The notes under the pieces are model-generated. The model worked only from the letters and a program-made list of their open reading frames with translations. It was not told the origin of the DNA and did no database searches. Made by a program: the position numbers and the translations under genes. A DNA stretch of 64,000 bases from an uncultured Saprospiraceae bacterium (GTDB lineage: Bacteria; Bacteroidota; Bacteroidia; Chitinophagales; Saprospiraceae), in NCBI GenBank assembly GCA_938022165.1, contig CALIEI010000044.1, positions 34,387-98,386 on the forward strand, read 5' to 3'. This document shows positions 45,830-52,132 of this stretch, one piece after another; within the stretch, counting starts at the first letter, position 1, and every line of letters starts with the position of its first letter.

Positions 45830-45945
45830 CCATTTGTCACGATTTTTGAAAAAAGAAAAATCGCGCCAAATGGGATAAATCGCACAATTTACCCAGGGCT
45901 GTGCTGTGCCCTGGGCTAATATATTTCGCCACGTTGTGGCTAATA
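45830..45945. repeat. REP-like hairpin cluster
   Basis: Three hairpins in series: CCATTTG-tca-CGATTTTT/AAAAATCG-cgc-CAAATGG (45830-45873), CCCAGGGC/GCCCTGGG (45892-45915) and GCCAC-gtt-GTGGC (45928-45940), the last bordered by near-repeats of taatatattt. The cccagggct...gccctgggctaatat pattern resembles dispersed REP-type palindromes seen in several bacterial phyla (from memory). No gene is present in 45711-46193. Confidence 0.65.
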
Positions 45946-51833: not shown

Positions 51834-51908
51834 GGGTGATTAGCTCAGCTGGTTCAGAGCACCTCGCTTACACCGAGGGGGTCGGGAGTTCGAATCTCTC
51901 ATCACCCA
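51834..51908 (+). tRNA. tRNA-Val (anticodon TAC)
   Basis: A complete 75-nt cloverleaf: acceptor GGGTGAT/ATCACCC with discriminator A, D arm GCTC/GAGC, anticodon arm CCTCG-CTTACAC-CGAGG with anticodon TAC (reads GTA and other Val codons) and T arm GGGAG-TTCGAAT-CTCTC with one G-U pair. The CCA end is not encoded. It has its own promoter and terminator. Confidence 0.97.
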
Positions 51909-51913
51909 CATTT

Positions 51914-51946
51914 AGAGGCTTTTGCATTCGCAAGGCCTCTTTTTTT
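51914..51946 (+). terminator. Terminator of tRNA-Val
   Basis: AGAGGC...GCCTCT hairpin (51914-51940), with additional TGC/GCA pairing in the loop, followed by eight T. A second copy follows the broken tRNA duplicate at 52099. Confidence 0.85.
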
Positions 51947-51981
51947 ATGCCTATTTCTTACTTCTTCTTACACATTACAAA

Positions 51982-52093
51982 CCTCGCTTACTCCGAAGGG
52001 ATCGGGAGTTCCCCGCCTGGTTGGCGCCAGTCGGACAGGCCTGCCCGACTGACTAGCGTCAGCGTGGTCAGGCGGGGAATCTCTCATCACCCA
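51982..52093 (+). pseudogene. Partial tRNA-Val duplicate interrupted by a 67-bp palindrome
   Basis: 51982-52010 repeats the anticodon arm, variable region and T stem of the tRNA with a few changes (CTTACTCCGAAGGGATC instead of CTTACACCGAGGGGGTC). 52078-52093 repeats the rest of the T arm and the acceptor 3' strand. The 5' half of the tRNA is missing, so this cannot form a tRNA. The 67 bp between the parts (52011-52077) are an inserted palindromic element. Confidence 0.92.
52011..52077. mobile_element. 67-bp cloverleaf-like palindromic insertion element
   Basis: The insert has perfect 9-bp outer arms CCCCGCCTG/CAGGCGGGG and three internal hairpins: CTGG...CCAG, CAGTCGG-a-CAGGCCTG-c-CCGACTG and CTGAC-tagc-GTCAG. 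Comparison with the intact tRNA shows it sits within TTCGAA of the T-loop; either it replaced CG or it went in between C and G with no target duplication. It encodes nothing. It is too short to move alone, so a trans-acting enzyme would be needed. I saw no second copy in the window. Confidence 0.8.
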
Positions 52094-52098
52094 CATTT

Positions 52099-52132
52099 AG
52101 AGGCTTTTGCATTCGCATAGCCTCTTTTTTTT
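52099..52132 (+). terminator. Duplicated tRNA-Val terminator
   Basis: AGAGGC...GCCTCT hairpin followed by a T run. It is a near-identical copy of the hairpin at 51914-51946, carried along in the same duplication. The following 285 bp up to the AsmA-like gene show nothing I can support. Confidence 0.7.

Follow-up and report, generated by a model that had tools for sequence, protein, structure and literature searches.

A partial copy of an intact tRNA-Val gene, its T-loop split by a palindrome, lies downstream of that gene in the window (the whole stretch of DNA analysed, 64,000 nucleotides from contig C44 of the 3.9-Mb draft genome G000, which is probably from Bacteroidota, the phylum of most named genomes with these elements). 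The locus probably belongs to an architecture in which an intact tRNA gene stands beside a partial palindromic copy of itself. In its complete form this architecture has a small GIY-YIG nuclease gene between the intact tRNA gene and a partial copy of it that carries a palindrome in at least one loop. We see about an even chance that the window locus is an ORF-less member (decayed or non-autonomous) of a tRNA-parasitic GIY-YIG family, in which the palindrome disarms the tRNA copy. The first-pass annotation had overlooked that the tRNA-copy context is general and that many loci have a small GIY-YIG nuclease as their linked enzyme. The parts of the window locus are as follows.

51834..51909, + strand: intact tRNA-Val (anticodon TAC), the parent gene (ARAGORN; Rfam RF00005, 67.7 bits).
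51888..51896, + strand: unsplit T-loop motif GTTCGAATC, reverse complement of the SegB cleavage motif RAWTSGAAC (pattern scan; motif from PMC13096335).
51910..51946, + strand: terminator-like hairpin and T-run of the intact tRNA-Val gene (direct reading).
51947..51980, + strand: 34-bp spacer without a GIY-YIG ORF (direct reading; comparison with GIY-YIG gene starts).
51981..52011, + strand: partial tRNA-Val copy, tRNA positions 28-58, the last bases being the TTC of the T-loop (BLAST of the tRNA against its surroundings).
52012..52076, + strand: 65-bp palindromic insert, splitting the T-loop as TTC|GAA (direct reading, folding, BLAST, pattern scan).
52012..52039, + strand: REP-like unit 1, in the orientation CCCGCCTG...TCGGACAGG (own-genome pattern match).
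52040..52076, - strand: REP-like unit 2, head to head with unit 1; the + strand reads CCTGCCCGACTG...CAGGCGGG (own-genome pattern match).
52077..52094, + strand: partial tRNA-Val copy, positions 59-76 (T-loop GAA, 3' strand of the T-stem, 3' strand of the acceptor stem; direct reading, BLAST).
52095..52132, + strand: copy of the terminator (direct reading).

The duplication of the 3' part of tRNA-Val together with its terminator, recognised in the first-pass annotation, covers tRNA positions 28-76 and a near-identical terminator that ends at about 52132. A T-loop insertion of 67 bp had also been reported; its placement was right, and its net size is 65 bp, the larger figure having counted the C and G of TTCGAA. 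As had been stated, the empty site can be read from the unsplit T-loop of the intact tRNA about 150 bp away, and TTC and GAA are parted without any duplicated bases, so that no target-site duplication is present at 52012-52076. In a pattern scan the palindrome splits GTTC|GAATC, a motif that the intact gene retains. The spacer showed no significant GIY-YIG remnant, its identity to GIY-YIG gene starts being no higher than that of shuffled sequences (p ~0.2). At gathering thresholds, an Rfam search of the window matched only the tRNA and one unrelated small RNA, with no RtT; the latter match is to the small RNA family Acido-Lenti-1 (45892-45941; 43.2 bits, gathering 37). A 94-aa open frame (51836-52120) starts inside tRNA-Val and crosses the palindrome, and is probably spurious. 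The open frames of several GIY-YIG genes likewise reach back into the tRNA.

The insert folded better than all of 200 shuffles, both as DNA (z -3.4) and as RNA (z -4.0). Its predicted fold is a single long bulged hairpin, and not the cloverleaf of an outer stem with three hairpins that had been proposed. The two head-to-head REP-like units from which it is built match single units at three more places in G000 by pattern. The earlier description of the element as REP-like holds, as the palindrome is short, imperfect and multi-copy, with no matches to a reversed control pattern.

Beyond this genome, the pattern CCTGYCCGACTG-N-CAGGCGGG was found at no fewer than 120 loci in genome contigs, and the matches listed were mostly from Bacteroidota with some from other phyla. 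A slightly looser pattern occurs 65 times in one Chitinophagaceae genome, 35 times in Mariniphaga, 18 times in Parafilimonas and 11 times in Niabella, while the reversed pattern gave none. The reading as a multi-copy palindrome that inserts precisely and leaves no target duplication is supported, and further copies in TTC|GA T-loops agree with the expectation of TTCGAA-like sites. REP junctions favour TN|GA(T), also outside tRNAs, and many members of the family have no tRNA gene nearby. CGTC is common in the family but is positioned in the loop of the inserted unit, and no unpaired GTAG or CGTC tag was established at one end of the REP. The suggested RAYT/Y1 transposase partner was rejected. 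Apart from weak mismatched matches, no REP was found less than 1.5 kb from any Y1 gene examined in 12 genomes (Pfam PF01797), and G005 bears REPs while having no Y1 gene. A general preference for hairpin loops outside tRNAs was also set aside, with some clear cases (L113, L126 and L135) and no more than a modest excess of complementary flanks overall.

Several other settings of the REPs were recorded. Most of those in the Chitinophagaceae genome DXS (L263-L322) lie in AT-rich microrepeats (aattgaaaatt|gacaattgaaaatg), with a junction of the same TT|GA type as that of the T-loops, and two other recurrent contexts were seen in Parafilimonas. Contig C14 of Mariniphaga (G814; L238-L262) carries many copies of the same REP at a spacing of roughly 1-2 kb, frequently arranged in short runs of tandem CCTGCCCGACT units. 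An intergenic mosaic of nested palindromes occupies about 4000-4600 of L080 (G000:C147), where a host repeat is present in two REP-filled copies and three apparently empty ones.

Among 224 distinct REP placements, about a dozen independent groups are inside partial tRNA copies. Splits of the T-loop at TTC|GA were found in copies of tRNA-Val (the window, G004 and G005), tRNA-Thr (Parafilimonas, twice in tandem), tRNA-Arg (several genomes, with five tandem units in Niabella) and tRNA-Leu. Others are in or near the D-loop of tRNA-Arg (Chitinophagaceae DXS, Terrimonas and Agriterribacter), tRNA-Ala and tRNA-Phe, or in the anticodon arm of tRNA-Arg. When the intact gene can be seen, it is usually within a few hundred bp of the split copy. 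Of 36 distinct insertion points, 31 fall within a tRNA loop or at its edge, compared with 52% of all positions. The inserts are mutually unrelated in sequence (e.g., TCCCGTTGTTCAACGGGA, CCTGCCTGCCGGCAGGCAGG and TCCGCCAGTTGGCGGA), hence what they share is the tRNA loop and their palindromic nature and not one particular REP. In G012 (L031), a member of the same family, three ORF-less tRNA-Val copies stand in tandem, with palindromes in their T-loops. Copies of the 5' part of a tRNA carry D-loop palindromes at L364, L071 and L193, and single copies at L338 and L381 have two or three inserts in different arms. At L336 the split copies were themselves called as tRNA genes, giving three tRNA-Arg calls.

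The age of the window insertion was assessed by comparison with five congeneric genomes (G001-G005). In G004 and G005 a truncated tRNA-Val copy follows tRNA-Val and contains a shorter palindrome at the identical T-loop position, whereas no copy is present at the tRNA-Val of G001, G002 or G003. The first-pass annotation had considered the insertion recent, a view that we reject as three species of the genus (G000, G004 and G005) share the insertion site. Presence and absence of a copy at the same tRNA-Val site among close relatives would also be expected of a free-standing homing endonuclease element. A reversed loop segment common to the G004 and G005 units suggests, on sequence grounds, that these two are of common descent. 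In a single case, the inner stem differs on both sides between G005 and G004 (GACT..AGTC versus GGCT..AGCC). In each species the terminator after the copy resembles the one native to that species, so either sequence may pass between copy and parent or the copy may be re-made. None of the three species has a GIY-YIG gene between tRNA-Val and the copy, and G005 (assembly 89% complete) lacks a strong small GIY-YIG gene altogether despite its T-loop palindrome. In G005 a REP is also present in a copy of the 3' end of tRNA-Leu (L045), and another REP-bearing tRNA-like copy has inserts at two sites (L046). Strict T-loop patterns returned one relevant match (G005) in 398 genomes of the family and none in 396 genomes of the phylum. 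Exact cases of this REP in a T-loop are therefore rare, and the wider phenomenon became visible only once the sequence of the palindrome was left free.

In many loci, the interval separating the intact tRNA from its palindromic copy encodes a protein of 80-110 aa. These small ORFs were assigned to the GIY-YIG family (Pfam PF01541, E-values of 1e-9 to 1e-15), and 12 diverse copies all retain Y5, Y16, G18, R26, H30 and E62. The catalytic residues are conserved in the wider GIY-YIG family; the window locus itself has no nuclease. The closest solved structures are those of UPF0213 proteins and the structure-specific nuclease SLX1. Some copies of the gene have degenerated, which would be expected if it is selfish. 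The association with tRNA genes was measured in two ways. A scan of 11 genomes with the generic Pfam model, which is not biased by training on tRNA-adjacent sequences, showed that small GIY-YIG genes mostly adjoin tRNAs (10 of 11 such genes in G045). When 46 relatives were scanned with alignment A1, 30 loci were retrieved, 18 of which adjoin an intact tRNA, a figure biased upward because A1 was built from tRNA-adjacent enzymes. All 18 of these contain a partial copy of the same tRNA, and several of the remaining 12 are at contig ends. G000 itself has a complete cassette at tRNA-Asn (L338), where the order is tRNA, palindromic copy, 110-aa GIY-YIG gene and second palindromic copy, and at tRNA-Val of G018, from the same family (L022), it is tRNA, GIY-YIG gene and split copy. 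Arrays were found at tRNA-Asp (L361, four nuclease units), tRNA-Arg(CCG) (L368, three nuclease genes with T-loop palindromes between them) and tRNA-Glu (L366, two nuclease units), as was the mirror-image order of 5' copy, nuclease and intact tRNA.

Parallels to parts of this arrangement exist. SegB of phages T4 and T6 is a free-standing GIY-YIG homing endonuclease encoded beside tRNA genes that cuts inside tRNA genes, is stimulated by the motif RAWTSGAAC in phage tRNA genes, and drives tandem amplification of tRNA and segB (PMC13096335). By our own reading, which is not that of the source, this motif would be the complement of the T-loop sequence GTTCSAWTY. The bacterial loci resemble SegB in having a GIY-YIG nuclease adjoining tRNA genes and tandem arrays of tRNA and nuclease; SegB, however, is phage-borne, larger and from the homing-endonuclease branch, and palindrome-split tRNA copies go unmentioned in the excerpted account of it (PMC13096335). 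The 178-bp rtT repeats of E. coli tyrT (rttR) are also tandem 3' tRNA fragments downstream of their parent; in each the T-stem is preserved, and a GC-rich multi-hairpin insert of about 67 nt interrupts the T-loop. The sequence there reads AAGGTTCGA, a 67-nt GC-rich insert and ATCCTTCCCCCACCACCA, three times. They differ in that the palindrome is by inspection unrelated to the window insert, the split is 1-2 bases further 3', no GIY-YIG gene is present and an annotated small RNA is produced. REP/BIME elements of the GTAG and CGTC super-families are likewise multi-copy imperfect palindromes of 20-40 bp that form head-to-head dimers, sometimes inside other palindromes, and CGTC REPs also lack a linked transposase (PMC3733652). 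The excerpted text of that paper does not mention placement in tRNA loops, and the end tag of these elements is not established for the window family. UPF0213 and prokaryotic Slx1-like proteins (PDB 1zg2 and 1ywl) are the closest by sequence and are minimal single-domain GIY-YIG proteins as well (PMC1564403), although they are predicted DNA repair enzymes and the superfamily survey, in its excerpted part, does not mention tRNA adjacency.

We infer a homing-like element from the palindrome splitting the complement of the SegB motif, together with the ability of SegB to cut tRNA genes and drive tandem arrays. The nuclease would cut the unsplit tRNA loop in alleles free of the element (GTTC|GAWTC in the T-loop type), and recombinational repair would then copy in the nuclease gene and a piece of tRNA in a manner that keeps the tRNA gene whole. 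The left-over piece would be rendered uncuttable by its palindrome, tandem arrays of nuclease and disarmed copy could arise from repeated events or unequal recombination, and the window locus would have lost its nuclease gene and kept only the disarmed copy. This cut-and-disarm mechanism is put forward tentatively, at somewhat less than even odds. Membership of the window locus is supported by the same T-loop insertion in three species and by TTC|GA splits at Arg, Thr and Leu elsewhere. Against the reading stands the finding of neither a GIY-YIG ORF nor a significant remnant at the locus. In addition, a recognition site contained in the tRNA alone would leave the intact gene cuttable, as it keeps the full motif and the same terminator, and one T-loop motif cannot account for the copies whose split is in the anticodon arm or D-loop. 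By sequence the bacterial enzymes fall in the Slx1/UPF0213-like branch, which is known to cleave by structure rather than by sequence. Many REPs of the family are distant from tRNA genes.

The main rival is a structure-driven model, together with plain REP opportunism. Under the former, which we regard as unlikely, an Slx1-like GIY-YIG nuclease would cleave hairpins or cruciforms, the palindromes would lengthen the T-, D- or anticodon arms and serve as substrate and not as shield, and repair would amplify the unit of nuclease and tRNA copy. The proximity of the enzyme to UPF0213 and SLX1 structures, the interchangeability of unrelated palindromes, the continuation of the arm stem into the palindrome at inserts and the tandem arrays L361, L368 and L187 are all consistent with this, whereas the copies with inserts in more than one arm (L338, L381) and the persistence of ORF-less copies across species argue against it. 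It is similarly improbable that a REP preferring TN|GA was simply tolerated in dispensable tandem tRNA copies, with an unlinked transposase and with GIY-YIG as a separate passenger. The multi-copy family (65 in one Chitinophagaceae genome), its junction preference outside tRNAs, insertion without target duplication and the presence of REPs inside other palindromes, for which REP dimers provide a known example (PMC3733652), would suit such opportunism. However, unrelated palindromes occupy the same kind of loop position in tRNA copies, which thus does not set this REP apart, placements within tRNAs exceed by far the genome share of tRNA loops, and linkage to a Y1 transposase is absent.

Retention of the copy as a functional RNA, either a stable RNA or a terminator-like decoy made with the tRNA as in E. 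coli rttR, is very unlikely. The tyrT repeats, which are laid out in the same way, give rise to the annotated small RNA RttR, and the two-sided change of the inner stem between G004 and G005 is of the kind that would favour this reading; yet a terminator separates the tRNA from its copy, the sister species G001-G003 lack the copy, and both its extent and its palindrome are highly variable. Integrases are known to use tRNA T-loops and to leave 3' tRNA fragments, which would be the basis for viewing the locus as the attachment-site scar of an integrase-borne island in tRNA-Val. We consider this exceedingly improbable, given that the terminator is duplicated as well, the spacers are just tens of bp, 5' copies with D-loop palindromes exist (L364, L071, L193) and no integrase is apparent among the ORFs listed around the site.

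We found no description of bacterial cassettes of tRNA, GIY-YIG gene and split tRNA in the open-access full-text literature. The nearest precedents are the REP dimers inside palindromes (PMC3733652), SegB beside phage tRNAs and the tyrT repeats. Taken together, the results point to a tiny selfish element living on tRNA genes, apparently undescribed, with a fair chance of being a class of its own. More specifically, it is possible, though we lean against so broad a claim, that there is a new class of mobile elements of about 300-450 bp on bacterial tRNA genes, with a one-domain Slx1-like GIY-YIG gene between the intact tRNA and a copy made uncuttable by a loop palindrome, with ORF-less derivatives such as the window locus that are spread or kept in the same manner, and with the tyrT repeats of E. 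coli as an ancient remnant of the same process. For annotation, caution is required with such copies, which can be mistaken for tRNA genes or for ORFs that extend out of a tRNA. If the element is real, it would explain why broken copies follow some tRNA genes, including the long-known E. coli tyrT repeats, why tiny GIY-YIG genes are abundant in Bacteroidota and why palindromes build up in tRNA loops. It would offer a testable rule, that the nuclease cuts the intact loop and the palindrome protects the copy. The element would then be a candidate to be counted among the smallest self-propagating DNA elements, and bacteria would have a counterpart of phage SegB.
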